Positions 32,663 to 55,439 of a stretch of 64,000 nt of DNA are shown in pieces. How positions within the stretch are numbered: position 1 is the stretch's first letter; every line of letters starts with the position of its first letter. A program made the position numbers and the translations under genes. This DNA comes from Isoetes taiwanensis (lineage: Eukaryota; Streptophyta; Lycopodiopsida; Isoetales; Isoetaceae), in NCBI GenBank assembly GCA_021234155.1, contig JAJEKV010000690.1, positions 1 to 64,000 of the forward strand. Direction: 5' to 3'. The notes below the pieces were generated by a model, which was given only the letters and a program-made list of their open reading frames with translations, ran no database searches and had not been told where the DNA came from.

Positions 32663-33161
32663 TCTAGGTTCTAATTTTTCTTTTTCTGATTAACATTATC
32701 TTAGCTTATTGATCTAAGGATTGGAAAAAAAAAAATTTCTCAATTTTCGAGGTTTATGCTTGGGTTGTTATCCCCAAGGTTGAAGGTCTACTGTTAGTCC
32801 TTTCAGGGAAAACACGATTGCAAATTAAACGGGAGTGTTGCATCACTCCCGTTTCAAAGATTCCCTTTTAAAAAACACCATGTTTCTAAATTAAGCCTTT
32901 TTTGAAAGTTGTTGAGAATTTCTAGAGGTTCGCATTTTTTTTCGTGCCATTTTGGGCCATTATTAGGCGATAACTTTGTACTTATGAAACAGAAATCATA
33001 CAAATAGCTTAAATTTAGGCAGAGACTTGAAGAGATGGAAGCATGAAAAAAAACAAGCAATTTAATAGAGAGGAAAAAAAGTAATATGTTTTTAATAAAT
33101 TTTCGTACATCAATATGGAAGATTCATTGTAATAAATAATGATAATTTTAATATGCAGTAG

Positions 33162-33762: not shown

Positions 33763-34075
33763 ATGAAGGTAGGGTAGAAGCATGAAAGGGTGTCTTGTAT
33801 TTCTTGCAAATTGATGTAAAAAAATACACTAGCTTAAAGTGAATTTAAGGTAAAATTTGAATTTTACATGGGCTGCCTATCATTAATGCTTTTGGTCCAC
33901 TTGAGATTCTTTTTGCAATTATTTTTGGCAACCCACCGAATTTGGGGGCACGTTTTGAGTTTTGAACTCCCTCCACAGGATTGAAGCTACCGGATTGAAA
34001 CCCCTTTCTCATTGGAACCAAGAATAGGATCCCCATTTCTATGCCTGTTTGATCGATCTTGGAATGTATGAAGCT

Positions 34076-37040
34076 ATGGCAGAATCAAATTCACCAGCAA
34101 CAACAGATTCGGATCTTGTTCTTGAGGAGGACTTACCATCGATTCGGAATTTTGCTATTGAGGAGGACTCTACATGCATTTCTTAGGGACAACCAATCTT
34201 CATCAAAAAAGATGCAATAGAGAGGCCGGATATGGGACAAAAGCAGATTAGAAGAAGGGTGAATGATTCGTGAATCACATACTAAATCAAGTTTCTAGAT
34301 TGAATCCAAAAGAGAAAAAAAAACTTTCTTTGGAAAATTGCTCCAGGATAGTAGATTGGACTTTTTATTTGGCCCCTGTTGTTGGAAGGCCTAAAGAGGC
34401 TATTGTGAAAAGAGATTTATTTGAAAACCTTAAGGATGGCCTCCAAGAAGTGAAACGTGCTAATAGCAATGACAAGCTTGTCGCCAAACACAATGTTCTT
34501 TCCATGGTAGTTGGAAAGGAAGGAGTATTTACAGCAGACCACACGGGCAGCCAAAATCCTCAAATTGCATCCTAGAAATATGAAGCTAGCAAAAGAAAGG
34601 AGGAAAAAATGTCACTTGTGGGAGCAAATCTGTGGGCATTAGCAGGACGAAAGCCAAGAAAAAAAATGCCATAGATCGGGGCTATGAGGGACAGAGTTGT
34701 TGGTTTACGGTTAGATAATACAAAAGTATCACCAAAGGTAAGAGATGTCATGAAGAAGAGGACTGAACCAATTCAAGACATCGACACATTACATGTACAT
34801 GCTAGTATTTTAGGGTCATGGAGGAGTCACATAGTTTTTTGAATTTTCGATCTGAACATCAAATGTACTTTAGATAGGAATGTATGTAGTCATGTAGATG
34901 TTTTCTACATTTTTGCGTGTGTGATAGTCTTTTTACATACAAGCATGTTCCACATCATGCATCAAGAAATGTTATTCGGTTTTTCTTGTAGAAGTTATAT
35001 TGACATGCTTTACATTGAATCCAACTTGAAGGTATACTTGAAGCTAACTGTAGAGATGTGCTATAGATGTAAGAAAATAAAACGGAAGGAAGCCACTTGT
35101 AGGAATGTAGTAGATGTCAAGAAAAATATGTGAATGCTTTTCATAGAGTAGCTATTATGTAAGGATGTGGGGTTTTGAGGAAGAAAGTACTTAGTTTGAA
35201 GAATGTGGAAGATACATTAAAAACATATAGAATGTACATTCTAATATTTTGTAAGATTACGGTAAAGGTACTTTTGCAGGTTGAATTATACCAAATCTTT
35301 GTTGATCAACATCCAAAAGTCAAAATTGGCATCGGGCAATTCGAATACTTAAAACCTCCTTGCATCACTAAAAGCTAAAGGAGAGGAATACCTTATTTGT
35401 GTGAAGCATGAGCGAAGCAGATTTTATATAAGAAGGCTTTCAATATGATGAGGTCAAAATTCCACGAGAATTGTACTTGCAATTGCAATGTGTGTGCTTC
35501 GGGTTAATGCCGGGATTTGCCAAGCTAAGAAGCAGGATTATGATAATGTGAGCACGCTTTGGAGAGCCATGATATGCCCGAGGGCGGCCGATGAGGAGTG
35601 GCACAAGCTAGCCTGCATGGAAACAAAATGTGACAGTTGTGGGAAACAGTTAATTGAGTTGTGTCCCAGAGAGAAGGATGGAAGCATCGAGGATTCGGTC
35701 GATTGGCAAGTCTATAACTATGTTAATGAACCTTCAAAGAAGGGAACTTCCCGAAGGCTGAAGTTAGTTGACAAGAAGGGCAGTGCAAAGGAGATGTTGG
35801 ACAGCATGTTCGACCATATGTCTAAGTTTATATATCACAATTTTGTGGCACATTGGCAAAGCAAGCAGTTCAAAGAATGCATACGAACGCCTTCGGCGAT
35901 TGATTCAGTGCTATCAGTTGTTGATTTTTCTGAAAATTATACTTTGAAGCCATTCAACGAGATTCAAGCTCAGCATTGGTACAATGAACAAATTAGTATT
36001 CTGGTTCATATCACCATGTTCAAGGTAAATGGCAGATTGAGAAAATGTGTGCACTCATTTATTTCAGGCGACAAAACTCATGATACCCACTTCGTACAAG
36101 ATGCATTCAAGATGCACCTCAAATGGTTGCAAGAGAATGGTGGTGGCCATTTGAAATACCATTTGGTTTGGTCCGATGGTTGTGCAGCCCAGTTTAAATC
36201 TAGAAGAGCATTCTATCATGTGACAAGATACCATGTTCAACATAAGATAAGAATGCAGTGGAATTTCTTTGGTTCAGGACATGGGAAGGGAACACACGAT
36301 GGGGAAGGGGCAATCTCTAAATTGTGGCTTGAAGCAGAACAAAGGAAAAAGGATGGGAAGATAGTAAAAGATGCAGCAACTGCGTGTCAAGTATTGAGGG
36401 AGAAAAAATCAGATGTGGAGAGGGTATTCTAAAAAGTGACTGACATTGATCGGTCCCAAGCACATGATGTACTTCCAGTAAAAGGCATGCAATCACTTCA
36501 TTGTGTGTCTTCAATAGACTCAAACGATGCTACAAAATTATTGTGCAGACCTCTTTCATGTTTTTGCAAAGCATGCATCAATTTTAATTGGCCTGCTTGT
36601 GAGAATGCTGACCATTGTGGTAGGTGGGAGTTGCGAAAACTAGAGCCAATTAGTAAGATCAATCCTGGAGATGTTGATGAGGCTGAGGATTTATGGGCAA
36701 ATGACGAGGATAATATTGACCAGACGCCGCAGGGTTGGTGATTATTTTGGATGCTTCACGACCAGGCATAATCATGAGGGGGTCCCTTATTATATCCTTC
36801 AATGCAATCAAGTAAAAACATGTACTCGAGGTAGATACTATGGATGACTATGGAAACTTATTTTTCAGAGGTGATGAGGTTATTACAGGCAACTACTTTG
36901 AGCTGATCCCTAGCTGCCATCAGAAGTACAGGTTACTAAAAGAGAAGAAGGTTTTGTCCCTCCCGAGTCCTGTAATAGGGGGTTTTTCGCATTGGAGCCA
37001 CCAAGCACAAGATAAAAGGTGCTGCTTATGCATATGAACT
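34076..37040 (+). pseudogene. DDE-like transposase-family protein of element C
   Basis: The gene is decayed and probably split by introns. The start at 34076 (MAESNSPATTDSD) is acidic. A NTKVSP-like block lies near 34730, then HPKVKIGIGQFEYLKPP (about 35305) and a Cys-rich block (CTCNCNVCAS near 35477). The long frame 35488-36432 has CDSCGKQLIELCP, VVDFSENYTL, EIQAQHWYNEQ, VWSDGCAAQFKS and GSGHGKGTHDGEGAISK. After a stop, 36436-36741 gives a second Cys-rich block (CFCKACINFNWPAC), and a last domain (DEVITGNYFELIP) ends at about 37040. Asp residues in VVDF, WSDG and THDGEG could form a DDE/D triad; that is inference. The protein at 51558-55439 is a diverged homologue. Confidence 0.75.
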
Positions 37041-37570
37041 GTCTCAAAGATTGGTACCGAGATGCTATTAGGAAATCTGCTTCCGAGATTGTAGATGTAA
37101 TCGCGTGAATTGCGTTTCTTGTATCAAGTTTACCTTTTTGTACATCAGGCTACATAATTATTGTCATGTGTTTGGCCAGCAGAACAATTCTGATCACTTG
37201 TTTTCAATATTAAAGTGAATACATTGGCAGCAGGTAGGTTCAAGACACTTGTACATGTACTTGAGACACTTGTACTTGTACTTGAAAACTCAAGGTTAAT
37301 GGCTACCTTAGGTTAATGGTTCATATTTCGTGAGTGTATATATGGTAAGAGCCATTTTGGAAGTGCCTAGTATTGTGGTTTTGAATTTGCTTGTTTGATC
37401 CTCAGGCTTACAAAGACAACTTATAACTTGACATAGCTCAATATGCCTCTTTTAAAACAATGGGGGACACTTATATTGTATCCTTTAGAATGGGGAACTT
37501 ATATGGGGGACACTTATGTTGTACCCTAAACCATAACTTTGGCTACTTTAGAATTGGTGGGGTCTTTATT
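37041..37570. other. 3' flank of the C gene, no ORF
   Basis: AT-rich non-coding sequence after the last readable domain, with a repeated GGGGGACACTTAT motif at about 37460-37520. Probably 3' UTR or spacer between the convergent genes. Confidence 0.4.
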
Positions 37571-37590
37571 GACCTTGTAAAAATTAAAAA

Positions 37591-37900
37591 GTGTTAACAC
37601 AAAGTGCAAGGTTTGACATCTTGCCACAAAGTGCACAAAGTGTTAACACCTTGTGCAAGGTTTGACATCTTGACACAAAGTGCACAAAGTGTTAACACCT
37701 TGTGCAAGGTTTGACATCTTGACACAAGTTGCACAAAGGTCTTGAACCTTGGCAAGACATTATTGACCTTGTAAAAATAAAAAAAGGGGACATGAGTTTT
37801 TTTTCCCTTGTCACTTATACAAGTTATTTAACACGTGCACAAAGTGTTAACACCTTGTGCACAAGTGTTAACACCTTGTGCACAAGTGTTGACATCTTGT
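37591..37900. repeat. Minisatellite built on palindrome GTGTTAACAC
   Basis: GTGTTAACAC occurs at 37591, 37640 and 37689, exactly 49 bases apart, with TTGACATCTTG and CACAAAGTGCACAAA between. A further cluster at 37844 and 37865 has a 21-base period, with a degenerate copy at 37886. The core sits in a larger dyad (CACAAGTGTTAACACCTTGTG). It lies between the two convergent genes of element C. Confidence 0.85.
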
Positions 37901-38505
37901 CCTCACCACTTATAGCAGAATTATTTAACACTTGCAGCAACAAAGTGCTAGTAATTTTGTGCAATGTTTGACATCTTGACCACTTATACAACTTATTAAC
38001 ATCTCCTCCTAATTGTGCTCTGACAATACAACAGGCAGAATTTGTGTCAAAATAGTGTACATGTTCACAATGTCAAAATATTGACATGGTCAGACTTCAA
38101 AATTTACAACTGTATCTCATGTACATGTCAAAATTTACAACTATATCTCATGTACATGGTCAGAGATTACAAAATTGTCAATGCACTTGTCCATCTCAAT
38201 CCCATGGGCTCAAGAGCATGAAGTCACAAAGATGGGATGGAAGCAAAAAGTGTGCACTTATCAAAAACGGAAATACCTTGCACTAACATTTCGAGGGGGA
38301 TGAAAGTGTATCCATCAAGTCAATTTATACCTTCACCTCCTCGTCATGGACCCCATGAAAAGTTGGAGTCCGAAAAGTAGAGGTTGCCGAGAAGAATGTG
38401 AAGGTACATAGTCCGAGTCCGAAGTCACCGCTCTGTAAGTCAAGTGTTGGGGACTTGGTGAGTCGAAAAAGAAATGGGATGTATCAAGCATACACTATCA
38501 TCAAA

Positions 38506-38641
38506 CCCATCTCAAATGATCAAGTCATGTAAGATCATGACCTCACATTCATCATCTTGGAGCACTCATCCAACCCATCTCAAATGATAAAGTCATGTAA
38601 GATCATGACCTCACATTCATCATCTTGAAGCACTCATAATA
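38506..38641. repeat. Tandem duplication, 68-bp unit
   Basis: Two adjacent copies of a 68-base unit starting CCCATCTCAAATGAT, differing at about three positions. Non-coding, in element C. Confidence 0.85.
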
Positions 38642-39213
38642 TGAGCTTAAGTTGTCAATAAGTGGTAGAACTTTTTATGAGGATAATTTAAGAACAGAGA
38701 AATGAAAGACATACAAAACACTTGGGATAAATTGACCTTTGCGTAAACCAGATACATGCTTTAGAATAATGCCATATGGCACAACTTATGTCATTTTTTC
38801 AAAATTAATTGGTTGAGGCACTCTGGCCAAGTACATCCGAAATTTTGAAGGCAACTAGGCCAAAACAAAGTCTGATTTTTATGCAGAGTGATTCCATTAG
38901 GCGCTCGAAGGTATTACCAAAGATCCGAATTTTATACAGCTTATGATATCGAGCATAAACCAAGTGTTGATCAAATCTGAAAGCGACTGCTCATCCACAA
39001 AACTCATAAACAAATGGTTAGATTCATCTACCAATCGACACATCAATGGCTTCTCCATCTTCACACCGCTTGGCTTCTTCTTGCGACATGTCCCGACCTA
39101 GCGCATAATCGTGTGAAAACCAACTCGTCTTGAAACACGTGCATAGTGCATTAAAGCAAACGTAAATGTAAAATGGTGTAAACTAAAAGCTTGCAAGAGA
39201 ATTGGACACTTAC

Positions 39214-39812
39214 CTTCAACTCCTTATTTCCGACAAACCGTTTCACAAATTTGTGCATGCGAGCCATCACATACAAGCCGCAATTCAATGCATCAGTCGC
39301 CGAGGTACTTCAAGATGTTCAAGCCCCTTCACATTATTTTCGCGAATAAAATCAACACCGCTTGAGGTTTGACTCATTGATTGAGTCAATATCGCATATG
39401 AAGCCCTCGCATTACATGCACATTTAAAAGTAGAAATGTAAATATTTAAGTAGACAGGAATGGGAGAAAGTAGATAGAAATGCATACCCTCTAATTGCCT
39501 TCTCATTTGTCGCAAAAGCTTTCAGACTATTCAATATATGAATCGATGGTGCACGAAGAACTATAGGATTCCCTTCTGCAAAGGCAAATATAGCCAATAC
39601 AAAGTGCTCATTCTCAAGCACGGGTAGAAGAACATACTGGCATTTTGACATAACCAGCCCTTTCATTCCCTGTTTCACGATATCTACAACGTTTCTTGAG
39701 GCCTCGGTTTTTTTCTTACTTGCTGTAGCTTCCTTGAACAAGTGAAAGTTAAAAGATGGATAAAAGAAAATCTTGTTCTTCCACTCCGATGGCAAATTAT
39801 GATGCAGATACC
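39214..39812 (-). pseudogene. Ulp1/C48-family cysteine protease of element C
   Basis: The upstream exon (39812 to about 39493, after an AG acceptor) reads QYVLLPVLENEHFVLAIFAF then PSIHILNSLKAF. This matches the His-(Trp/Phe) and Asp-Ser-Leu catalytic blocks of Ulp1 proteases, but with Asn in place of the Asp (ILNSLK). The next exon (to 39214, donor GTAAGT) reads TDALNCGLYVMARMHKF, the Cys-Gly block. Just before it the frame breaks where VPQQ would need two CAG codons but CGGCG is read. Ulp1-like proteases are common passengers or partners of plant DNA transposons. Its role here is unknown. Confidence 0.8.
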
Positions 39813-40189
39813 TACAAGAAGATAAGGTCATAATTATACTTCATTATAAATACACAAAGAATAGGAAACAAGATTGCAAATTAAATGGGAGTGTTGCATA
39901 ACTCCCGTTTTAAAGATTCCCTTTAAAAAAACACCATGCTCTTAAAATTGGCCTTTTTTAGATAAACTTGAGAATTTTAAAAGGTTCGCTTTTTTTTTTT
40001 CCCTCATTTTGGCTCCTCATTAAGTGACAATTTGTTTTTTTGCAAAGATGTGCCCTTAAAAATGGCAAAATGTAGATGTGAATACATAATCTCTGAAAAT
40101 GAGATATCAAAAACATCAAAATAGAGAAGAAAAAATAATAACTATTTCTTTGAATTTTTTCAAGACATCAATTTGGCACCCTCAAAATT

Positions 40190-40297
40190 TAGTCCGAATT
40201 GAACGATATGCTCGCCGACGCTGTAACTGGGTATACGCCCCAAGTCTCTACGTAGTTGTTCCTCAAGCATATTTGATTTGTTTTGACGCTCTATTGG
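40190..40297 (-). pseudogene. Methyltransferase internal exon, copy in element B
   Basis: After an AG acceptor (TATTCAG) the minus strand reads PIERQNKSNMLEEQLRRDLG and on to VQFGLNF. The exon of element A at 47269-47405 starts PKERHNMSNMFDGAAKRRDM after the same acceptor. The remaining downstream exons, including the catalytic motif, are absent from B, so B cannot make an active enzyme. Confidence 0.65.
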
Positions 40298-40372
40298 CTG
40301 AATAAAAAAACAAAAAATATTCAAGTAAACAAATGAACACTAGGACACATAAAACTAAATATAAAAACAAAA

Positions 40373-40549
40373 GTGTATTCGGAATACACTTTTTGTTTTT
40401 CTAAAATATGACGTGTATTCCGTAATACACTTTGAATTATGATAAAGCAAAAGTGTATTCTCGAATACACCTTTTGTTTTCTCGAGAAAGCAAATGTGTA
40501 TTCTCGAATACACCTTTTCGAGAAAGCAAATGTGTATTCGAGAATACAC
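40373..40549. repeat. Palindrome array 1 (element B, intron-like position)
   Basis: Five copies of an 17-18-base palindrome GTGTATTC-NN-GAATACAC start at 40373, 40413, 40453, 40496 and 40532. Spacers of 18-25 bases differ in sequence but are themselves roughly dyad-symmetric (for example around CTCGAG). The centres vary (CGG, CCGT, TCTCGA, CGAG). The array begins 76 bases upstream (gene sense) of the methyltransferase exon. Confidence 0.92.
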
Positions 40550-40559
40550 CTTTGCTTTC

Positions 40560-42730
40560 CCAATTCACGCCTCACATTCCCCCAAAGGTGTTACATTCAA
40601 GGAGGTGACCTGATTAAAAGTATTTTGACTTGTCCAAGAGGTACGATTAATGAACAAGCATAAGACATTTTGGTTTTCCCTGACACACCTAATTTGGCTA
40701 TGGCTTCCCATGTCCCTTAAGAACAAAGTTGGACCTTGTGGCTTGAGTCTTTTCTATAAATGCCTAAGGAGGATTTTTCCAATTAATTTTCTCATTGATC
40801 TTGATAAAACATCAAATGTTACTTAGCCATAATTTTTTTGTTCATCTTTCTTGCTCTGGATCATGTAAATGAACTCATCGATAGCATGCATGGATCGAGA
40901 TATAAAAAGACAAAGCAATATATTCATTTAAACAAGGAGATACATCAGAAAATAGTCCTTTTCGCTAAACTAAGGCACACAACTCTAAAGTAAAACCAGA
41001 GGGCATGAAAATATACAATTATCATCAACCAACCAGAGGGCATGAAAACATACAACTCATCATCAAGGGGTTGGGGAGATAAAATGGACCGACAAGTTGC
41101 AACAAGACCGGCAAGTTATCGATACAAGATACATGTTTTGAGGATAATGAGCATGTCCCCGCACCAACATCCTAAAACTACTAGAACTATATTTGTTATG
41201 TCGTCCAGATCCATCTTCATGTATCAATTTAGGCTTGGAATTCAGCCATCTTACACTTATTTGATAATGTTGTTGATTTTGCAAATCTTGATGAGTGAAA
41301 GACTATGAGAACCGGGCGCTTCTTTTAAGTGCCATAAATCGAAGTTGTAAACATCGGCCCTTGTAGAGCTCGCCCAACATCTACAGGTTTTGTTCATCAT
41401 GCTTTTGCAATTCTACCTAGTCTTACTTCATTGTTCAACTATCATGTTGTCGCTTATTCAACTTTCTTTGCCATACTCATGTTGCCGCATGTGTGCAATG
41501 AAGCCACATTTTGCTCCAATCGCCGCAAAAATTACACAAATTCCACTATTTAAAACTAGAAAATCCTTTGAAAGGCACAAGCCTAAAATAGTAGAAGATG
41601 TAACCATTTGCAAGGAGATTTTGCAACCAACACAAGAACAATTGCAACCGTAACCATGCTCCGTACATTAATAAAGATCTGTGGCCACACAAACATTTTG
41701 CCTTCATCAACAAACCCGACAAAGCCATGTATACAATCTTCATTACATTGTCCGGCCAATATCTTGACAGTAAATATGTTGCATTTGTTGAGTCTAAAAT
41801 AAGAACAGAGGCAATTTCGGTAAGATATCCTCGCATGACATCGGCATCTCCGATCTTATACTGTAATTTTGATGTCATTGGTCTAACTTGGCAAACCGCA
41901 TATAAAATGAAGAAGCAGAGGGATCCACGCTAACGCTGATTCTCGGCAAATTCCATATCAAACGCTATGTCATGAAATATCTATCAACCCAACTATCATT
42001 GCCATGGTGTTTCCAAAATTTCGATTTCTATGGAGATCCAGATCCGAAGAAATTCCGAACAATCGGCACAGCATGACTAAAGATTAAACTTATCTTGAAA
42101 CGCATAAAAGGAAAAAATTACAGAGACCGTGACTGCTTGATACTTAGTCTCAAGTTTCAAGTTTTTGCATGCAAATATAAAAAGGCTCGATTCAATTTAC
42201 TTCCGATTATGTATTCTCGCCATTTGAAACATAAGAGGAGATCGTGGCTACTGTAAGGACCAAGAAGGTCATGGGCTTATTTTTGCCATGGAAAAACCCT
42301 AAATCTAAGAACCCGAAGCTTACCGAGCCTCCAGAGCCGCTGTGGTTTCTTGATTCACCATGCCAGAGCCAAAATAGACCACGATGAAGTAGATCGCTCG
42401 ATAAAATCGATCGAGGGAGAAAAAAATTTGCCTCCTCTCCCCTTCAGACTAAAATGTATTCGAATACAAAGTGTATTCCGTATCAACTTTTCCACTTCGA
42501 ATGCGACCACGATCCAAGATCCCTACCTCTAAAAAGGAAACAAAAAAATCCCTTTTATTATTTAGAACCATAATCCTGTATCCCCATAAAATAAACAAAA
42601 TAAAATCGCAAGGTCCTTGAAATTTATTGAAGATACTGAAAAACCTAGTTGATGTCGCCTGATTTTCCCCTGTCCCTATCCAGAATAGGAAATATATTCC
42701 AGATCAAGTGAGTCTCAAAATCTTAGACAA
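40560..42730. other. Middle of element B: unidentified, possibly captured sequence
   Basis: Not found in element A. The minus frame 41546-41878 (LQYKIGDADVMRGYLTE and on) and a short plus frame at 42271-42387 (LPWKNPKSKNPKL) have coding-like composition but I do not recognise either. A degenerate palindrome unit lies at about 42454-42480. Confidence 0.4.
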
Positions 42731-42737
42731 CAAAAAA

Positions 42738-42838
42738 GTGTATTCCTAATACACTTTTAGATTTTCGAGCAAAATAAAAGTGTATTCCGGAATACACTTT
42801 TGTTATCCTCGAATAGCAAAAGTATATTCCAAAATACA
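42738..42838. repeat. Palindrome array 2 (element B, near right end)
   Basis: Three units start at 42738 (GTGTATTCCTAATACAC), 42780 (GTGTATTCCGGAATACAC) and 42822 (GTATATTCCAAAATACAAT, degenerate), exactly 42 bases apart. The spacer between units 2 and 3 (TTTTGTTATCCTCGAATAG...) is an imperfect palindrome centred on TCGA. Confidence 0.88.
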
Positions 42839-43202
42839 ATTTTGGTACTTTGAAATATTATATCATTAAAAAATGACTCATTGTAACCTAAAAATACCTT
42901 TTCTGGAATACAATCCAAGCTAGCAAAATGTTGTGTAGGACGTACACTTAAATTAGTGGTTTTCTAAAAATACGCCTGTAAATTTAACAAGTAGGAAAAG
43001 CGCCACTTTGACATAGTCAATTTTCTTTTGCATAAAAAAAATTGAGTGATTTTAGGGGGGTCAAAATGCAATTTTATGATCAAAATAAAATTTTTACCTC
43101 ATTTTCGCTCTTTTTTTGGGGGAAAAAGGGAATCTTTGAGGAATATTCCTTTTGCTCCCGTTTCAATGATTTGCTCCCGTTTAATATGCAACCTTGTTAG
43201 GA

Positions 43203-46200
43203 GATGAAATCGAATTACATCTACAACACCTTGTGCATACCCGCCATGATTCAATAAGCGCTTTGTCATTCTTGATCCGGGTGCACGAGTTCTTCAAGGT
43301 CAATATCGACCACCTTCATGGGAGGATCAGGGGGCTATCCTTGAAAGGCATTTAAAGGCGTAAGAACACGGGGTTTTTCACGCATGCTCCTACAAGGATC
43401 AAATTGAAGTGTCAAATATCATGCGTGTGCATAAAACAAATGTTTCATAATATTACCTTACATCAAAGATCGATTCTTCACCGGATTTAGTATCTTCAAG
43501 AGATTTTGTGTCTTCAATGATTTTTGCCTACAAGAAATGGTGTGAGTTGAAGAAATGGTGTGAGTTAAGGTGAAGTGCATACCTTTTTCTTAGCTGCACT
43601 CTTAGCCGGGTGCATCCTTTCTCGCTTGAGTTTTCCGCTTGTTATTTGGGGGCATCCTCCTCCTTCACGATAATCGTTTCTATAGCCTGCCGGTGCTTTC
43701 TTATCTTCATCCGCCATAACCAGTAGGAGAATATGCACCTCATGAACAAATGTTCTTGTTTGATGAGCTTTAAAACCAAAACTAGCTAGCAAGCCTCGCC
43801 GCCATTTTTCGCAAAGAAATGGAAAACATATTGAGCTTCAAGACCTAAAAGTACATATGAAGTGCTCGAATAGGTAGTGTAAGACAAACACAACTAAAGA
43901 ATTAAGTAGCTAAATACCTATATTATCGTAAAAACAAGTTAAAAGAACATTCATTAAATGGCGACCTATTGTAGAAACCTCAACAATGGCTGGTACTTCT
44001 CGGTGGCAATAGGGATTTTTTTTGGTCAATATTCTCGCCACCTACTTCAAGTTGTATGAATGGACAAATATAAGCTAAATTAATGATGACACCATACAAA
44101 AATAAAAGTGTCCGCTCACCTTTGATAGGAACCGTTCTTCGAGTCAAGGAAGCCAACTCTAAGATCCAAATTTGGGATCTCCTCTTGAAGACTAATTCCA
44201 CCGCAATCACACATCTTACAAATTAGCAACCCCGAAATAATATTGAAGCTTATATCAACTCAATTAAATTTGAACTTATCGATTCTGGGCATTGCCATCT
44301 CCACAAACTTTCCCGACTCGCTGCTTTCCCGAGCCGTGAGAGAATGCCTTAATAGGTGATGCCGATGTAGAAGGAGTCCGTAGGACATGGCATCATCCTT
44401 GGTTGGTTTAGGTTCAAAAAACATCGAGAATTCGTAGCAAGGTTCTTCCTTCAAGGAATGGCTTCACACCCGCATATGACAATGGCTAGTTAGTTAGACT
44501 CGGATCTGAAAAAATTCTACATGTTTACAAATCATCTACATGTTTACATTACCGTTACAAATAGAGTTCAGGTTTCTTGATGCTCCCCTGCTTCGCAAAA
44601 CAAAAATTAAATGTAATCAAACTAACAAACAAGGAATCAAGAATGTAAAGTGTCAATAAATGTAAGTCATGCAAGAAAGCATCTACATGAGATAGGTCCG
44701 TAAGTTATGCAATAAAGCATGTACATGATGTAAATTTAAGTGAAGCAAGAAAGCATGTACATGAAAGAAATGTAAATGATGTAAAGAATGTACTGTATCC
44801 AAATCCAAGCACCTTGAACTACATTCATTCTCCGTAACAACAAAACTTAAGTCCATGTAGAAGGTAAATGTCGATTCAAGATTTCTACCAAACAAATACA
44901 TATCTAAAAATAAGCACTTGCATATCAAAAAGTATTCCTACAATCAGCAAAAAATGAAATCAAGTGAACAGAATTACCTTGAGTAGAAATTTTATATTTG
45001 CACGAAGTTCTTGAGGCCAAAGACAATGAAAAACACATCGGGGGTTCAAGTAGAAACACTGTGATGAGAGACAAAAGAAGGCGTGAGGGATGTCCACATG
45101 ATGGCAACGCCAAAATACTATTGTCAAGGCATGCATTGCAAGAGCAAAGATGTGTTCTTCACACGAGGATTTGATGCCTTACTATCTCGCCGTAAGAACA
45201 GATGGATGCAAGGTAATTACATCCGATGTTTCAAGATGTAACATCATGTCCTTTATCCTACTCTCACTAATTTCATTCATCTCCAAATCCTTGCCGATTT
45301 CATGGATGGCAAGTGGCTAATGTCCCTTTCGAAGTCATGTCTTCGATTGGCTTTGTTAAATTTTTCATCTCCTCCATAAAACTTGATTTTTTCCTCTTCA
45401 AAGTGACTTGCCAATGCCATTTGCAAATCTATTGGCTGCCCTCACGCCTTTAGTGTCGAATTTTGGCAAGCCGAGTGTTTATCGTGCATCGATTTTTGGA
45501 CAACCCTACTTAATGTGCTTTCTCTCACTCTAGCCCTCGCAAAATCTCGGATTCAAGTAGCTTCCTCTTGTCCTTCAACTCCTTCAACTGCTAATCAAGA
45601 TAGTAGCATCCACAAGTTTACTCTCAACCAATTTCTTCAACCCATCCATCCGCATTTCTAAACCGACCTGTGGCATTTATTTACCTTGCATATTTTACAT
45701 TGACGATTTTAGGTCTTTGCATGTGTAACATCAGACTCCTTTTGCTCTTTTTTAGCGAAATAGCATTCTCCTTTACCTCATTCCGGTCAATTTGTATGCC
45801 TTTGTAATGAAGTGCAAAGGCCCTTGCAAAGTACAATGGAATGTGATGGTTATTGATCTCCGCCTTGCCTTAATACATGCTCATATTTCTTAAGAAAATC
45901 GCCATCCAAACCCCTTGGATCTTGGCATCTTGGTAACCCCTATCACTGGTGGTTCAGAGCCCCAAACATCATGAACCACTTGCAATGCACTGGAAAAACC
46001 GAATCAAAATTGTAGGTCCTAAGTCGTTTCTAATGTTAACCTTGAGCAACTCACAAGAATGAAGATTTTCCAGAGTTGTCTTTAGTTTCAGCCGGCTTTC
46101 GATGGCTTAGGCAGGGTTGCCATGGGCTTCAAACCCTTGGTTCTTGGCGACTTTTCGACTGATCCCACCTTGCCGCTTCATTGCTTCTTGCTTTGCTACT

Positions 46201-46330
46201 AATAGGGCTTGATCAATCACTAATGAATGCACAAAATCACACCCTCCTGCAGCCTAAACCCTAAGCTACCGATCTAGGTGATAATGGGAGAGTATCGGGC
46301 TTAGGGTCCATGATCGACCTTGCAAAGGTC
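43203..46330 (-). pseudogene. Upstream exons of the element C Ulp1 gene, poorly resolved
   Basis: Several minus-strand frames have coding-like composition: 45350-45430 (HFEEEKIKFYGGDEKF), 45110-44980 (NPRCVFHCLWPQEL), 44454-44270 (KEEPCYEFSMFFEP) and 43720-43590 (ADEDKKAPAGYRNDY, highly charged). Some end at GT donors. They lie upstream of, and in the same sense as, the protease exons at 39812-39214, with element B between. I cannot join them into one reliable frame and name no domain other than the protease. Confidence 0.4.
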
Positions 46331-46382
46331 GGCTATGGTGGGAGCAGCAGGTTGGGAAATGGGCGGGGATCAAAGAATCGAG

Positions 46383-46420
46383 GAAGGAGGTCTTTTTTTT
46401 TTTTTTTTTTTTTTTTTGAA
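46383..46420. repeat. Poly-T tract
   Basis: A run of about 25 T inside element C close to its right end. No coding meaning. Confidence 0.8.
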
Positions 46421-46585
46421 AATTAGTGCATTAAAGTTTCCCAACCCGTTTGAAAATTAGGGTACCCCTAATAAATGAGATCTCAAAGGGGAATTTTTAC
46501 ATTTTGCAAATGTAAATGTATAAAAGTGTCCCTTTTTTGCCCACCCTTTCATGCTTCTACCCCAGACTCTACCTTGCTAAGCAAC

Positions 46586-48123
46586 CTTGGTCCTCCACCA
46601 TGGTAGTTGATGTTCGCTTTTGTACCTAGTGAAACATTTAAAGTGATGTTAGCAAAAACAAGAAAACACTCTAAAAACCGAACAGGAAATACTATTAGGA
46701 ATACACTACGTAATCAAAGAGAAAAGTAAATCGTGATTCGGAATAAGACTTACCGCACAAGGTCTTCATATCCCGCCTCGAATCGGAGAACCAAAGTGGT
46801 TTTGAAAGCTGATTCTACCAAGCCCGATCGCATGCTCGAATGGAAAGTAACTAAACGCCAATGTTTAGGGTTGTGATCTGCTTGATTCCATCAATAAAAG
46901 CATTAAACTCTGAAAATTTGAAGGGCTGGTCGTCGATCGGCTTTGCCTTTAAGCTTAAACCCGTAGGGAAGATCAGCAATAACCAAAGTGAAGTCCTGTG
47001 GTTTAACCTGTTCGGACAAGGTTCGTGCAATCACCATGAATGATTGAATATAAATTGTTTTGATCAAACATGCAAAATCTCTCGTAGTCGGATGGTTCTG
47101 GCTCAACAGTTCTTCTTTCAGCTAACGACCTCTCTTCCCGTGCTGTTCTAACCAAATGCATAAAGCCCTCGGGAAGGTCTTTGTTTTTCTTTTTGCTCGA
47201 GGGAAAAACATAACAACAATCAGAAGGAGATCGTGTGTGCAAAGACGAGGAATGTTGAGAGTACTTACACGACCCTCAAAATTTGGTGCATATTGCACAA
47301 TCTTTCGTCGAAGTGGCTATTGGGTAGAGTTCCTTGCACCTTTCCCATGTCTCTACGTTTAGCTGCTCCATCAAACATGTTTGACATGTTATGACGTTCT
47401 TTTGGCTGCAAGACGTTAAGGAAACAATGAGTTAAAAAGTAAGAAACAAGGCAAAGTAGAAGAAAAACAAATAAAAGTCAAGCTAAATGTATTCTGGAAT
47501 ACAAACTGGTTAACTGGTGATGCTACTGAACAAAATGCATTGTGTATTAGGAATACACATTGCTTCTCTGAAGGAAGCAATGTGTATTCTGGAATACACA
47601 ATACTTTTTTAGAAGAGGACATGTGTATTCCGGAATACACATGCCTTCCTTTACATGGGCAATGTGTATTCCGGAATACACATTGCTTGTCTCTAGAAAA
47701 GCATTGTGTATTCCGGAATACACAGTGCCCATGTGAAGAAAGGTATGTGTATTCTGGAATACACTATCTACCCCGATGTTTTTGGGACTCTAACGTCTAA
47801 AGAGTAAAGTTTGTGGCAGAGATCTTACTTGTGCAATTCCTTTGACATTTCTTCTAGGCTAAACTCCTTATCAACAACTTTTTGGAGAAGCCGCTCCAGA
47901 ATCTCTGTGTCGGAGAAGCCCTGCATTTCTCGCCAGACGGTAATGGTCATTTCTTTTTTGGGCACGTCAGATGATTTTTTCTTGGCTGTCTCCTTGCCCT
48001 TGCTCTTTAACTCCCCTCGTTCGAACATTGAAAATATCTCGTCACCGAGTTCCCAAATCTGTTCAAAAAGATTTCCACGTGAGATAGTTGATTTGTTATT
48101 CGGAATACGTTTTTGTGCTTACC
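46586..48123 (-). pseudogene. DNA methyltransferase, N-terminal half (DLPYGF)
   Basis: Minus-strand exons: one ending at 48123 (SVRNILEMAR); 48058-47829 (IWELGDEIFSMFERGEL to FSLEEMSKELHK, helical and charged, flanked by AG and GTAAG); 47405-47269 (PKERHNMSNMFDG); about 47198-46754; and 46625-46586. The fourth holds NLYSIIHGDC and VIADLPYGFKLKG, the DPPY-type catalytic motif IV. It continues FSEFNAFIDGIKQ and EAGYEDLVR with two or three small frame breaks. With FSGSGTT downstream this is a beta-class amino-methyltransferase (N6-adenine or N4-cytosine). Marchantia DN4MT1 is a known plant enzyme of this general kind; whether this is related is inference. Confidence 0.85.
47488..47764. repeat. 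Palindrome array 3 (element A, methyltransferase intron)
   Basis: Six clear units start at 47542, 47582, 47623, 47664, 47706 and 47747 (spacings 40, 41, 41, 42, 41), plus an outlying unit near 47488. The full unit is GTGTATTCCGGAATACAC; centres vary between AG, CTGG and CCGG. Spacers are 22-24 bases and all different, and the first (ATTGCTTCTCTGAAGGAAGC...) is itself a dyad. The array fills the intron between the exons at 47829 and 47405. Confidence 0.95.
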
Positions 48124-48359
48124 TTGCCATCTCTAAAATATTCCGGACACTTCCTTCATAGAACGTCTTTGAGCAACTTCCTCTCAAAAATCCTAAGGAG
48201 TCCAAAGCGAGAAGAAAAGTACCCCGAGTCATCCTTAAAAAGCCATTGAAAATGGAATTTCCTCAGCTTTAAGTACTTCTTAGAAGAAGATGGGATGTGG
48301 TGGAGTAATTTCTTTCTCGAGCAGAGAAAATTGTTGTACAAAATATAGCTCTAAGGCAG

Positions 48360-49079
48360 TTGCAAGAACCATTTCAATGGCCTAACACCTTCCATCAACC
48401 CCGGACCAAGCAGGTCCAAGCGAAAGGCTACATTTGCACCAAAGTAGAAGACGAGGAGGACCGAGTCATGTACCCCTCGGACAAGGCAGGAATGAGCCTC
48501 AAGGTAATATCACGAAATTACCAAAGGTATGCTAATTGCTCTTCCGGACCGAGGGATGATGACAAAGGTCTAACCGTTCTCGATAGCAAAAAGTGCTTGA
48601 CACCGGTCAAGGAGGAAGGCTTAGTCACTAAACTCAAGATTCATTGGCTTGCAACACGCTCGAGAAAATGCTTTTGAAGGTAGATATGAGTTAGAAATGA
48701 GAAGCCAAGGAAAAGGGAGAAAGTCCAAGAAGGTGGGTTGTAGGGACGAAATTTGAACCTTAATGACGTGACTATATTGTGCTATGATTTTAAATTGAAA
48801 TCGACAATCGTCTCACGCTTGAGGAAGACTATCAATTTGCTTAAAAAGCTTGTAATTACTGAAGAAGATGATGAAGAAGGTGGTGACAATGCTTCACCAT
48901 CCGCTGATAGTGATGAGGAAGATAATTCAAGCACTTCCTCGAAAGTGATGATTGAAAGAAGTGAAGGTGATGACGATGGCATAAATGAATATGAGGACGC
49001 CCCGGATCCCTCTCTCATCACTCCTCACACTTTTGCACATAACCGAGTCTTAGAAAAGATCAGTAAATTTTGCATGTGA
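48360..49079 (+). CDS. Divergent acidic ORFs in element A, unknown
   Basis: Two plus-strand frames, 48360-48677 and 48753-49079, lie back to back with the methyltransferase gene. The second has a basic/hydrophobic helix (VSRLRKTINLLKKLV), then a long Glu/Asp/Ser tract (EEDDEEGGDNASPSADSDEE) and a defined C-terminus ending CM. They could be exons of one divergent gene or antisense to the first methyltransferase exon. Not recognised. Confidence 0.35.
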
Positions 49080-49458
49080 ATATGAAGATTCTATCTTCAA
49101 ATTTTGAGAATACTAAAGTTTAGGTTACATACTTACTTCAATTTTTTTTGTTAAATATTTTATCCTCGAAATTAGAGTTTCTCTCTTAAAACATACTTTA
49201 AGAACATTCTATTTGCTAAGAAAAGTGACACTTTAAAAAAGTCAATTTTTTTAGAAAAAAAAAAAATTAGTCATTTGGGAGGGGTCAAAATAGAATTTCA
49301 TGCATCTTTTTTTTTAACCTCGTTTTACCCCCTTTTTTGTAAAAAAAGGGAATCTTTGAGGAATATTCCTTTTGCTCTCGTTTCAATGATTTGCTCCCGT
49401 TTAATACGCAACTTTGTTGGAATTGGTCAGTGATTGATCTTGGTCTACCAAGATCATA

Positions 49459-49472
49459 GCTCTGATATCTGG
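49459..49472 (-). promoter_or_regulatory. Primer-binding site-like sequence of LTR element
   Basis: The minus strand reads CCAGATATCAGAGC, of which TATCAGAGC matches the classical plant LTR primer site complementary to the 3' end of initiator Met tRNA (TGGTATCAGAGC). It lies immediately inside the LTR and 37 bases from the edge of element A. Confidence 0.65.
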
Positions 49473-50990
49473 ATTAGACATCCCCTACCACGACGATGCT
49501 CTCATGTGATCCGGCCGAGGAGTTCATTCCCATGGCAACCAGGTTGACAGAGGCCGTCCACCTAGCACCCATCCCTTGACAAGGAATAGGTGAGGAAGAA
49601 TGGACGTGTCATTCATCCCGTCTTCCCTCGGGACCGTCCTAGCTGCGGAAGCATAAATAAACATAACCACATGACGTCAAACATAAATAGCTCCACCTCG
49701 AAGGGCGGCTCACCATAGCATACATGTGAAAGTACATCAACAATATCATCATAGGGGAGATCCTACCCAAGGCTCAGACTCAAGGTGTATGGACTGACAG
49801 CTTGGGTCTCTAGAAGTCATTGCAGACAGAATTCATGTCAATGGATTGGGCTGGCATAGGAACATGGCTGTTGGGTAGTTCTTTCTATACGCCCCTCATG
49901 TGCATACTTTGCAGAATAGGTTGAAGAGTCTTGGGATCGGATCAGCTTTTGCGAGTGCATAGCCAAGGGGGCTACTACCGGGTTTCATCTCCCGGGTCCT
50001 GCGAGGCGAGGGAGGGGGATCACCCCCTCAGAGGTATGCATGCCCGCCAGGCGCGAGAGGGGACCCTTTGCCTACCACGACTTGAACCTCATTGAAGGCG
50101 ACACATCACCCAAGAAGTGTCGAGCCCATGCCTTGCCCACACGCACTGACAAACCATTAGGCCTAGCCTGCTAAGATCCCTGGTAGGCTTTACACACCAG
50201 AGGGATCAATCTACAATGGGACATGTCCTCCTTATCCACCAATATAGCCCCGCCACTCACAACCAGGCGGGCTCTTATGCACAGGCTGCATTAATTGAGA
50301 ATTAATGAGGCTATCTAGATACATCAACTACTAAAGCCTTCAGGGTCTCTACCCCCCTTTCCAATACACATGAGTGCACATAGAATAAAACATAATCACA
50401 TAGAACTGAAATATAGAATAACATCTAATCTATCTACCTAAACTACATGGTTAGGTTCCTTCGTTAGGTCTTATGATTTCAGCATCTATAAGGTCACTAA
50501 GGCTAATATAACATGCTATCCCAGCTCATTGCCAGACTAAAAGTCGGCATCGCATAACAGAATCATTTTTTACCTGATCCCTGGCTTTCTCTCGCACCTC
50601 GAATCGTGTCCATGCCTTTGCTTAGGTCGAAGGCGACCGAACTTGGAGGATCTGTTGTGCAAAGGTGGCTTGACGGCATCTAGCAATGCGAACTAGCAAC
50701 TTGGCTTGGCCGAAATGGCTCAAGGAAGCCGAAATGCAAAAATGGAAAAGGTTTAGGGTTTCCCCTTTTGTTCCTTTTACATGACCTTTTAGGTTTAGGG
50801 CTAAAAGGACATGTGGGGTTTTGCCATGAGGCAAAGGAGTTAAATGCATATATTTATAGACATGTGCAACATACGAGGTTGCCCCCTAGGGTGCAATCCT
50901 TTACGGTTCCTAAGTACATGTCATCAAGGTGGTATGTACGAGTGGCATGGCAGTATAATATACGTATTTGAGCCATATATTATGCTGGAA
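49473..50990 (-). mobile_element. LTR of a minus-strand LTR retrotransposon
   Basis: About 1.4-1.5 kb of GC-richer, non-coding sequence directly 5' (minus sense) of the primer site. A TATA-box-like TATAAATATA is read on the minus strand at about 50849-50859, as expected for an LTR promoter. The outer boundary is not clear: no second LTR is in the window and I cannot identify a duplication. The leader continues at 49419-49458 and, beyond element A, at 32810-32176. Confidence 0.6.
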
Positions 50991-51557: not shown

Positions 51558-54500
51558 ATGGAATGGAACGCTTCCTTCCTCGGCTCTGCGGCCAAGAACA
51601 AGGTGGCGTTTGATCCTCGCGATCAATTCTTTTCCTAGCCTCCATGAATTAACAACAAATTCAAAAGATTTATGGAATCTTGTTCAAAATTCAAAGACAA
51701 TTATTGACAGAGGTCTTACTCCGGTCGATAATTTGTTCTTGCATGACATAACCGCGGAACAATGCTATTCTCTTTAGGAAATCTTTGGAATTGCTGCCCC
51801 CTCAGGTGGATCTTCAATTAAAGAAGTGAACCAAGAAGACAGAGGTGTAACCTCTGCTTGTTGATTTTTTTTTGCAATACTTTCTTAATTCTTAATTACT
51901 TCTACTCTATTTTTTTCAGGAAATGGTGGATTTGCTACCCCCCTAGATGGACCAACTATTGAAGAAGCTTATCAAGAAGCTGGACATGAAGGTTTAGCAT
52001 TTGTATTTGTGTGCTGCTTCAACAACCATTGAAATTTGTACTTATTAGCAGTATATATGTCTTTCTTGTTTTCAAGATTATGGACAACAAGTCATGGAAG
52101 ATGAAAGCATAAACGGCTTTCACATTTCAGGTATTTCAAATTGGTTTGCCAAATTGGTTTGCAATTTTGATTTCAGACTCAATGTCAAGGTCTTGCACTT
52201 ACTTTTATTGTACTTCCTCATTGCCAGGTCTTGGTACATGTGTTGAAGAGGTACATGGTGAATTTGTTGCAGAAGAAACAGTTGCTGAGTACTTGCAAGA
52301 GGAAACAATGGCTGAGGCAACAGGTAACTTATTTACTTTCAAGCATCATTGTCATTTTTTTTTATGGTGTCAATTCATTTTTAAAGCTTTCTCGTTCAAC
52401 CCAGAGGTGCAGGATTATCCAATGAACAAGTAGAGGTGCATTTATACCAAAACATACAAGTCTCGACACCGGATATTGAAAGTAAGAAATGTTTATTTGT
52501 TTATGTTGATTAAATGACTCTTGCTTTGTGAAATTTAGCTATTGTTAGCATATGTAGTCAGTCCTTTTTAGGAAGAAGAGAGCTGAACAAAGAAGGAAGG
52601 AGAGCAAAAAAAACAGAGAGAGAGGGAGGTTGCCGCAGATGAGCAAGCCAAAGTCAATGGTGAATTCAAAGACAAAGAAGAAGAAAAGGTCACAAAAACA
52701 TTGGCAAACTTGTAACCGAAATTTGTGAAAACGCAAGTGAAAAGGACAAGGAAGATATCTTAAGGGGGCAGCCAAATGGTTGCCTCAACTTGGTGTTGAA
52801 TCCACCAAAGAAGTAAAGACTATGAAAGCTATAGTGGATAACTTGAAGAAATCATTTGCAGCTCACAAGTATGCTAAGGATACGGATATTTGGAGAGCAA
52901 GAAGTACCGCTATGGCTTTCTCTCAGAAATTCTCGATACCAATAGAAGAGCTTTTGCAAAGCAATTGAACTTGAATAGGAGAATTGTATCGCTTGTCGCG
53001 TGAATAGAAGGTTGGCAAATTAAACATGGAAAGGTCCATGGTCAATGTTTAAGAAGAGCACTCGATGTGACAAGCTTTTTATGATCAAAGAAAATTTGTG
53101 GTTGACTTCTGGAGAAACAACACTAGAGTGTCACCTTGCAAAAAACATGTCATGAAGATCAGACTAGCTAAAGGAGTGAAAGTAATGCATCCCTTGCATT
53201 TCTTGGAAGAAACTCAGGTCAGTTTTTTTTTCTAAAGTAGTTGTGATTCTTATTTCAATTCAATTACTTACTTTTGTTGTTTCTTCAATTTGATGTTCTC
53301 CTAGGTGTGTTTCTACAAGAGGTTTACAGCAGAATACCCAAAATTTGAGGTATCTTTCTCAATGTTTCATGCTTTGAAGCCACCATATGTGAGGAAAGTT
53401 AGGGATAGAGAAACTTGCTGCTGTGTCTACCACATGAAAGCGTGACTTTTATAAGACAAGCAATAAATAAGGTTAGGCATGATGAGAAGATTCATGGTAG
53501 TAGCTGCAATTGCACATGTTTAGTTTGTGGTCCAGGACCTATTTGCATGGCCAAAACATGCACATATGCAGCTACTAGTGAGTTGTGGAGGTCATTAGTC
53601 TGTCAAAAGGATGAAGAAACAGAAGAGTGGCATAGACATGAGTGTTTAACTCTAAAATGCAAGAAATGTGGACCTGCCAATTTACCTACATGTCCAAAGG
53701 AGCTAGAACACAAATCGATCACAAAATCGAAAGTGGAAAACCTATGACAAGGTAAGAGTTCAACCTAATAGTATCATGATTTCTATTTGTGATGTCTAAT
53801 GTCAATGATTTGTCATTATTGCAGGTGTACTTGAGCCTGGCTGTGGAGAGCCAGAGCCCGATGGGAAAGGAGGGTTCAAAGTTGGTAGTAAACCAATTAC
53901 CAAACTAGTTTACAAATGCACAACCGCCGCTTGCATTTTCCAGAAGCAAAAAACAGTTCTAAAAGAATTTATTCCACATAACTATGAAGGGAGATGGCAA
54001 GCCAAGCAATTCGTGAGAATGCCCCGCAACATTCCCAAAAGACACAATTGTGTCGGGTCATAGATTTTGCTGAAAACTATAGTTTTAAGATTCAAGAAGA
54101 GATACAAAGTCTGCATTGGAGGAATGACCAATGCACAATCTTGGTGCATATTACTTATAGACACGCTACCAAGTTAGATGACATTAATCTTGACGAGAAA
54201 GAGAGAAGGGTTGTGAAGGAAACTCACTTCTACATATCAGATGACAGGGACCATGATACATTGATTGTGCAGCATTGCTTGAATAAGCATGCTGCATTCT
54301 TGAGCAGCAAAGGTGTGAAATACAACAAGCACATCATGTGGTCTGATGGATGTTCTCATCAGTTCAAAGGATCAAGAACCTTCTATTTCCTTGGGTGAAC
54401 TACCATTAACACCGGGCATTCCAATAAATTGGAACTACTTTGCCTCATATCATGGAAAGGGTAAGTACTTTTATGGTTTTTCTTTGTGTTTGTAATGTAT

Positions 54501-55439
54501 TCTTGTTATCTCATGGAAATTGTATACCAGGTGAGCATGATGGTGCTGGAGCTGTCATCAAACGAGCTTTAACTCATGAGATGCTGAAGAGGAGCTCAAG
54601 ACTTTAAGAAATGCACATGATGCAATTGGTATTTCTAATTAAACATTTTAGTGACAACTCCCAACTCGAGGGAAAGGACAGATACAGGTATGCTGAAATA
54701 GTGCTGTTTTTTTCTTACAATATGAGAAATAATCCTCTTTTTACAGGTTCTTTTGGGAAATTGGAGTGGATGAAGTCGACAGGTCACAGAGGTTTGATTG
54801 TGCTACACTAGTAGGTTCAAGCAAATTTCATTCTATCAGGCCAATTCAAACAACAGATCCAACACAGGTAGCTCATATGGATTATAGTTGTTTCTGCCAT
54901 AACTGCTGGTTAGGCAAACATGCCAAGTGTCCTAACAAAGCCAGAATAGGTACATGGCAGTACTCAGAACTTAGACCATGTGCTGATTATGTGGAAGATA
55001 TTGTGGATGGTCCTGTGTTTGAAGGTGATCCACAATGGATGTCCGATATTCTTGCAAGCTTGGGGATAATTTTTTTGATGTAGTTTTGAGCCCCGACAAT
55101 AAAGAGAAGGTGGACTTTTATGTTCTTAAATGCACCAAAGTCAAACATGTTGTTGAGAAGGCATTCAAAGATCCATGGGGTCAGAAGTTTGGCAGAAATG
55201 AAGTTGTTGTTACTGGGTTATTCTACAAGTATTTAGGGTGCAATAGATATGAGCTACTTGTGAATGAACCAGAGTGTAATGTTTACAGTCATTTGGTAAC
55301 TTCAGTTTGTTTTGAAATGAGCAATAGTGATGGAATTGGAAATTGCTTCAATTTGCCAGAAGACATACATAACCAAATACTGGACAGCTTGCCACAAAAC
55401 AGTGCTTTGTTTGCTCAGGAATCAGATCAGCCTACATGA
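51558..55439 (+). CDS. Second DDE-like transposase-family gene (element D)
   Basis: Multi-exon. ATG 51558 (MEWNASFLGSAAKNK), then LTTNSKDLWNLVQNSK and several short acidic exons to about 52480; 52568-53217 (VVDFWRNNTRVSPCKKHV); 53305-53750 (VSFSMFHALKPPYV, RETCCCVYH, CNCTCLVCGPG, CKKCGPANLPTCP); 53825-54460 (DFAENYSFKIQEEIQSLHW, MWSDGCSHQFKGS, SYHGK); 54531-about 54634 (GEHDGAGAVIK); 54748-55439 (EVDRSQRFD, CFCHNCW, NEVVVTGLFYKYLG). Introns have GT/AG borders and one splits the GHGKG-DGAG block. A few small frame breaks remain. Block by block it matches 34076-37040. Three acidic blocks suggest a DDE/D core; enzymatic activity is inferred. Confidence 0.75.

Follow-up and report, generated by a model that had tools for sequence, protein, structure and literature searches.

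The window (the whole 64,000-nucleotide stretch of Isoetes taiwanensis DNA analysed here) contains a Sola1-like DNA transposon with both of its ends, in which an array of short palindromes is located in a predicted intron of a minus-strand gene for a ParB-like methyltransferase (Table 1). Judging from its sequence, this copy is dead: it has been split by later insertions, most of its middle is gone (the part corresponding to positions 3193–7822 of copy E37 is deleted at ~48134–48138), and the methyltransferase gene is frameshifted. A second, short copy is nested within the insertion that splits the first one and carries two arrays of its own. The splitting insertion also contains tandem repeats at 37588–37900 and 38097–38637 (units of 49, 21, 31, and 68 bases), some of which carry GTGTTAACAC palindromes. 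Two sets of related open frames on the plus strand (35452–36741 and 53409–55083) have the look of another transposase family, with motifs such as VVDFSENY or VIDFAENY and WSDGC..QFK; Pfam gave nothing convincing for the frames scanned. A hairpin, AAACGGGAGTG TTGCAT CACTCCCGTTT, was seen just within the left end of the element in the window (32811–32855) and in the other copies inspected, and none was present at the right end of the copies inspected.

Table 1. Features of the window related to the palindrome arrays and to the transposon copies that carry them
Feature	Position	Strand	Remarks
Transposon carrying the array, with both ends	32811–49418	.	GGAA/GGAA flanks at 32807–32810 and 49419–49422
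3' part of the predicted ParB-methyltransferase gene (N6_N4_Mtase, FSGSGTT motif)	33162–33828	-	Frameshift resulting in two overlapping frames
Later insertions splitting the element, ~12.8 kb	33771–46566	.	
Second, short non-autonomous copy, 3,332 bp	39867–43198	+	AGGA/AGGA flanks
Left array of the short copy	40373–40549	.	Centres CGG, CCGT, CTCG, CTCG, CGAG
Right array of the short copy	42738–42839	.	
Exon remains before the catalytic D(L/I)PYG motif	47003–47275	-	Frame broken ahead of the motif
Array-holding intron of the methyltransferase gene (predicted)	47406–47828	-	Donor CACAA/GTAAG, acceptor CAG; from copy comparison
Palindrome array	47487–47764	.	Decayed unit at 47487, then units at 47542, 47582, 47623, 47664, 47706, and 47747
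Exon upstream of the array intron, ending ...MSKELH	47829–48118	-	
Right-hand portion of the element, with the 3' end of the transposase gene and the right terminus	48134–49418	+	

From 47542 onward, the unit starts in the window array are separated by 40, 41, 41, 42, and 41 bases. The first-pass annotation had described six units at intervals of 40–42 bases, which agrees with the segment 47542–47764 but not with the 47488 end, where a seventh, decayed unit lies 55 bases ahead of the unit at 47542. The latter unit is 17 nt long with the centre AGG, three units carry the exact sequence GTGTATTCCGGAATACAC, and the centre CTGG is found in two. The spacers flanking 47664–47723 are mutual inverted copies (70-nt arms, 90% complementary). 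Centres of the TCGA type, which had also been attributed to this array, are those of the second element copy at 40413–40549 and lie outside it.

The ends of the element are imperfect inverted repeats starting with AACA (AACA...GATTGC..ATTAAACGGGAG). In the genome, 1,090 left ends (≤2 mismatches) and 937 right ends (≤1 mismatch) were counted, and the controls gave 0. Long copies with both ends are 8.2–8.7 kb in length. The listing up to contig 907 contains 84 left ends, and for 47 of them a properly oriented right end is listed within 20 kb; these pairs comprise 27 of 7.5–9 kb, 6 of ≤5 kb, 1 of 6.8 kb, and 13 of 9–20 kb. Identical 4-bp flanks were found in all six long copies with both ends (E23, E30, E37, E39, L032, and the window copy) and in all seven short copies, including the second copy of the window. 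The plus-strand gene encodes a DUF7869 transposase (E 5e-52), and no Mutator family was among the Pfam matches of this transposase. Sola1 elements generate 4-bp target site duplications (TSDs), and the superfamily name was adopted because of the 4-bp TSD and the parallel with an Ectocarpus element (see below). TSDs of the same length are described for Sola2 (PMC3627910). The copies are mosaics, with an identity jump near the intergenic array in two of the five pairs compared (from 64–87% to 89–98% in E23/E37 and from 60–80% to 85–97% in E50/E30); the jumps in E37/E30 and E23/E50 are located elsewhere, and E54/E37 has none. Exchange between the methyltransferase and transposase modules may have taken place at the palindromes, as well as at other points.

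The minus-strand gene, which lies opposite the transposase gene, comprises an N-terminal exon, an exon with the ParB-like stretch, and two exons that together encode a predicted DNA methyltransferase. A methyltransferase gene around the array had been proposed at first sight, and this was borne out by a match to N6_N4_Mtase (PF01555, E 1e-17); the best PDB sequence matches are CcrM, MboIIA, and RsrI. The D(L/I)PYG motif is readable in 12 of the 14 full copies (in E30 within a broken frame; it is lost in L030 and E37) and the FSGSGTT motif in 11 of them. When the last methyltransferase exon was used as a query, 3,339 candidates were obtained, and the best 150 of these, which were scored, all matched. 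DPPY and SPPY are described as the motifs of N6-adenine and N4-cytosine enzymes, respectively (PMC8885841); the D in the first position of D(L/I)PYG is more like the N6-adenine than the N4-cytosine enzymes, and the second residue is unusual. The C-terminal methyltransferase exon shows dN/dS values of 0.00–0.075 in all computable pairs, nine of the 14 copies being usable (a stretch without stops or gaps) and dS being beyond the method for seven pairs. Synonymous differences between deep lineages are near saturation (pS 0.60–0.80).

The ParB-like exon matches TIGR03764 in all five aligned copies, with a best E of 7e-5 that is below the curated cut-off, and a ParB-like partition protein of PHROG (E 0.0057); the shortened exon of L031 has neither match. 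No ParB family was found in Pfam (DUF6551 at best, E 0.0076), and there was no match in the PDB. The ParB-like domain call is weak but consistent. A BAH-like domain, suspected by eye in the N-terminal exon, found no support in Pfam or the PDB and was discarded. Scans for relatives of the ParB exon, which detect only places with an exact short peptide, gave 158 pattern matches in viral and 107 in prokaryotic contigs, none of which was confirmed by tblastn. With the joined protein, tblastn against phages gave 362 records, and the 15 listed rows all lie on the methyltransferase half, at 22–26% identity.

The exact 18-mer GTGTATTCCGGAATACAC occurs 2,585 times in the 1.66-Gb assembly and its reversed control 0 times, and one shuffle of the sequence collected up to that point contained 0 palindrome sites. 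By its rbcL gene, the assembly is that of a land plant. The first 50 exact sites in contig order form 24 clusters. The first six clusters align with one another outside the arrays, and the other 18 can each be aligned with array-masked members of the family over lengths of 219–2,422 bp. By these alignments, all 24 first-listed clusters belong to one DNA transposon family, in line with the plant transposon named in the first-pass annotation; arrays equally common away from the element family were not found among these clusters.

In full copies, the arrays occupy two zones: an intron of the methyltransferase gene and the stretch between the two divergent genes. The donor CACAA/GTAAG is present in the window and in 13 of the 14 full copies, the best match in the remaining copy, E23, being spurious; the AG acceptor of the array intron is present in the window and in 12 of the 14. 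The array intron, which had been predicted from the window, is supported by this comparison. Units with ≤2 mismatches and a fixed centre were found in the array intron of 12 of the 14 copies and between the divergent genes in 12 of the 14, and all 14 copies have units in both zones if centre-length variants count: six units with shortened centres lie in the L032 intron, and similar units occur in the intergenic zone of E37 and E54. These shortened-centre palindromes (CGG, CG, AGG, and CCT, observed at L006 4819–5080 (E37) and in E54 and L032) reflect either genuine deletions in the centre or errors of long-read assembly at CC/GG. The number of units per zone ranges from 0 to 10. The usual array intron of L035 is 94 bp long and three units are located in the next intron, in which the related copies L030, L031, L032, and E50 have one unit each; a single unit of this kind may have expanded into the L035 array. 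Single units were also seen in the next methyltransferase intron of L001 and, at position 1129, in another methyltransferase intron of L036 and L037. Eight of the 14 full copies had been picked by the methyltransferase protein alone, and all eight have units. None of the 153 sites in the 14 copies overlaps the coding matches, which occupy 51,451 of the 118,507 bases, coding parts outside the query exons being counted as non-coding.

The 18-base core consensus is identical in seven lineage groups and in the window, the copies of which fall in two groups. Units were picked at ≤3 mismatches from the consensus, a threshold that a lineage with a differing core would escape, yet every full copy has units. 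Neighbouring in-register units are 93.5% identical in the core and 65% identical in the spacer (69 triples); between copies, spacer identity is 38%. A symmetric core of 18–24 bp, flanked by weaker purine/pyrimidine shoulders, stands out in the information profile of 134 units, and the unit borders are free. In the core, TTC and GAA hardly vary, the two centre bases do, and the outer TGTA/TACA is strongly conserved as well.

Spacing was analysed at 42 loci (two overlapping loci dropped), which contain 235 sites and 157 gaps of ≤130 bases. These include 34 gaps of 41 bases, 79 of 42 bases, and 9 of 43 bases, i.e. 122 of the 157 are 41–43 bases long. The indel-to-substitution ratio in the array-masked parts of short copies is 0.132, and a rough neutral model that combines this ratio with an assumed indel-size distribution predicts that 44–49% of gaps would keep their length within one base at 60–65% spacer identity, compared with the 122 of 143 gaps of ≤60 bases that do so. 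A period of ~42 bases thus appears, under this rough model, to be kept. The conserved period proposed in the first-pass annotation is consistent with these data, and the spacing does not drift freely relative to the spacer sequence. The helical phasing offered as its reason did not hold up as such: no 10.5-bp phasing was detected among the 33 off-register gaps (p ~0.14), and units facing the same side of the helix are therefore not told apart from dimers placed beside each other.

Within one array, the mean identity between spacers is 0.573 in direct and 0.541 in inverted orientation, compared with 0.38 between copies, and a spacer compared with its own reverse complement gave 0.478. For the 147 spacer pairs within arrays, the inverted alignment is better in 70 and the direct one in 58, with 19 ties. 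The close pairs (≥0.8) are mostly direct (23 direct vs 7 inverted), and recent array growth may therefore have proceeded mainly by direct duplication. The palindromic nature of the units would let recombination flip a spacer and leave the site unchanged. The early description of the spacers as all different is accordingly half right, as they are relatives of one another, direct or inverted, within one array, and the term ‘CRISPR-like’ was abandoned because spacers are not unique and have been duplicated, sometimes in flipped orientation. A true CRISPR array, with unrelated unique spacers, is ruled out by the same related and sometimes flipped spacers.

The two centre bases of the 235 sites are CG in 127, CA in 46, TG in 43, and others in 19. 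CpG is intact at 62% of the array centres vs 71–93% for CpG columns near the element ends, a difference that may be inflated as few comparison columns were available and only those retaining some CG were admitted. This comparison of CpG decay gave no sign that the arrays are protected from 5mC. The suggestion that the centres are methylation sites appears weak, as the centre bases vary most within the core (outermost bases aside) and the centre CpGs are at least as decayed as the others. From this decay it follows that most arrays were probably 5mC-methylated over time, which would count against permanent anti-silencing in most copies.

Seven short copies were compared, namely the six listed end pairs of ≤5 kb and the window copy, whose left end is too diverged for the left-end listing. 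Arrays with an unchanged core consensus are kept in all seven, at a distance of 377–512 bp from the right end in every one and, in six of them, ~500–840 bp from the left end. In rows of ≥150 bp, the short copies match E30 and E37 over at most ~155 bp of the left end and over ~205–265 bp of the right end. In the short copies, nothing matched the methyltransferase, ParB, N-terminal, or transposase exon queries at 1e-3. The small exon beside the array intron was found just before the left array in five of the seven (54–69% amino acid identity). This remnant suggests that the short copies arose from long elements through deletions, which probably moved the intron array of the long element close to the end as their left array; the left array is thus inherited and does not represent a separate linkage of ends with palindromes. 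The short copies are descendants of long copies and of one another, so that the retention of arrays does not represent seven independent events. An interior of 2–3 kb was observed in the short copies (L038–L043 and 39867–43198 of the window).

A comparable accessory protein is described for the algal genus Ectocarpus. In Sola1-1_Ec32, a single protein combines ParB-like and N4C/N6A methyltransferase domains, its gene lies on the opposite strand to that of the transposase, similar proteins are cited for green and red algal transposons, and the authors suggested in 2025 that the transposon carrying such a protein may be bound and modified by it (PMC12477816). The Isoetes element has the ParB-like and methyltransferase protein opposite the transposase in common with Sola1-1_Ec32 but belongs to a land plant and is much smaller (8.2–8.7 vs 21.5 kb). 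The accessible portion of the Ectocarpus report mentions no palindrome array and names no target, and the Isoetes array is a candidate for such a target. In the literature search, a ParB-methyltransferase gene in a eukaryotic transposon was found only in this paper, in the portion covered, and no land-plant member with a fixed palindrome array as its candidate target was found in that search, the cover of which did not extend to Iyer 2011 and Petroll 2025. Methyltransferases are also described in other eukaryotic mobile elements, such as DIRS and other retrotransposons (PMC5890265).

The arrangement of the arrays is similar to that described for VANDAL21, in which VANC binds arrays that lie within VANC and VANB introns or ahead of the transposase gene and induces methylation loss (PMC5735166 and PMC10398659). 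As far as these descriptions go, both systems have arrays of short motifs that are specific to a TE family, are found within introns of accessory genes as well as upstream of the transposase, and differ strongly in unit number between copies. The VANC21 motif (YAGTATTAY) is described as 9 bases long, non-palindromic, present in one orientation, and diverging fast between related elements, whereas the Isoetes unit is a palindrome of 18–24 bp, fixed between deep lineages and repeated with a 42-base period. VANDAL elements encode a Mutator-type transposase (VANA) and VANC, whereas the Isoetes element encodes a DUF7869 protein and the predicted ParB-methyltransferase. The Isoetes arrays are best read, by this analogy, as convergent with those of VANDAL and VANC.

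Bacterial ParB/parS systems combine a ParB-family protein with clustered short palindromic sites. The Isoetes element resembles them in the ParB family and in its clustered palindromes, but its ParB match is weak and partial and no ParA gene was noticed in it. Bce_0392 of Bacillus cereus is described as a ParB-like domain fused to a DNA methylase, and the bacterial ParB-methylase as a non-specific nickase (PMC5512222), which cautions against assuming a parS-like clamp. The fusion is a common feature of the bacterial protein and the Isoetes one, whereas the Isoetes gene is eukaryotic, transposon-borne, and has introns and an extra N-terminal exon.

Because a VANDAL21-like layout and an accessory protein of the Ectocarpus class are combined in this element, the array can be regarded as a putative target of the ParB-methyltransferase. 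We tentatively favour, at slightly less than even confidence, the reading that the array is a cis-acting self-recognition site of the Sola1-like transposon, most likely read by its own ParB-methyltransferase, with an anti-silencing role. Family specificity, selection on the core and on the gene, placement in non-coding parts, and retention in short copies support this reading; the reader protein, the DNA modification at the array, and the anti-silencing effect are what we infer from them. The unit is an inverted repeat, GTGTATTC-NN-GAATACAC, with AAA/TTT shoulders, which would suit symmetric binding by a dimeric protein, as the first-pass annotation had also supposed, and its repetition at ~42 bases would allow several dimers to bind together. 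The likeliest reader would be the ParB-like methyltransferase of the element, the gene of which has the intron array and starts beside the other array. Binding might mark or open the non-coding element DNA against host silencing; the divergent genes of an opened element would be expressed and the transposase would reach the ends, including those of copies that have no genes. Such gene-less copies have nothing to express, and a role of the array in transposition fits them equally well. A parS-like loading site, at which the ParB-like methyltransferase would clamp or nucleate, spread, and write 6mA or 4mC as a self-mark by which related copies, gene-less ones included, would be recognised as self and kept open and mobilised, is conceivable and appears rather unlikely.

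The main rival, likewise judged unlikely, is that the array is an accessory transposase-binding site, enhancing the transposition complex from an internal or subterminal position. Subterminal repeats are transposase-binding sites in plant CACTA or hAT elements, and the short copies that lack main-exon matches keep both their ends and the palindromes, with arrays near both ends. Sites within a few hundred bases of both ends are, however, a feature of short copies and not of long ones: the arrays of long elements lie ~1.8–2.3 kb from the left end and at least ~3.8 kb from the right end, in an intron or intergenic, and the left array of short copies is probably an old intron array, the adjoining exon being recognisable in five of the seven. 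An enhancer bound by a host transcription factor, by which the element would be stress-induced, seems improbable. The TTC-NN-GAA core with its free centre resembles an inverted heat-shock element, the near-invariant TTC/GAA around a variable centre would fit such a factor, and one array is located between divergent genes; yet a heat-shock factor would not need the conserved TGTA/TACA, the 24 first-listed exact-site clusters are in this family, and short copies keep arrays.

To an equally small degree, credit was given to a passive tandem repeat that grows by slippage or recombination, is copied with the element, and has no function. The variable unit number and the duplicated and flipped spacers are as in a recombination-prone palindrome, and the left array of short copies is inherited from long ones, but this disfavoured explanation does not fit a core that is conserved across lineages with nearly saturated synonymous sites and is absent from coding matches, the second-intron array of L035, or the intact core of short copies in which the neighbouring exon has decayed. 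The smallest chance was assigned to the palindromes as RNA or DNA fold-backs (stem-loops or dsRNA) rather than protein-binding sequence, an explanation that is also disfavoured. The array RNA folds at -143 kcal/mol vs -57 kcal/mol for shuffles (z -16.6), with long hairpins formed by inverted spacer pairs, and this strong fold is due to the inversion of spacers within the array; no Rfam family reached the gathering threshold in 46500–49500 of the window. Half-site changes in 282 units (≤3 mismatches) include 10 two-sided complementary ones (~3 expected), which is in favour of folding, but 15 are two-sided and non-complementary and 210 are one-sided. Since both two-sided classes are present, as in decayed units, the fold was read as a by-product. 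Moreover, a stem tolerates any paired sequence, yet the core sequence is fixed across lineages.

Transposons of the Sola1 type with a ParB-methyltransferase, and the idea that this protein binds its own element, were known; the self-recognition reading favoured here would add a candidate for the target, proposed from sequence comparison. This candidate is concrete, long conserved, and present in many copies in one land-plant genome. If self-recognition by the array is true, TE-encoded, sequence-specific epigenetic self-recognition would have arisen at least twice in plants, in VANC and in this element, with a common layout and unrelated proteins, and if the array is in addition a loading site for the ParB-like methyltransferase, a plant genome would contain a parS-like epigenetic self-tag.
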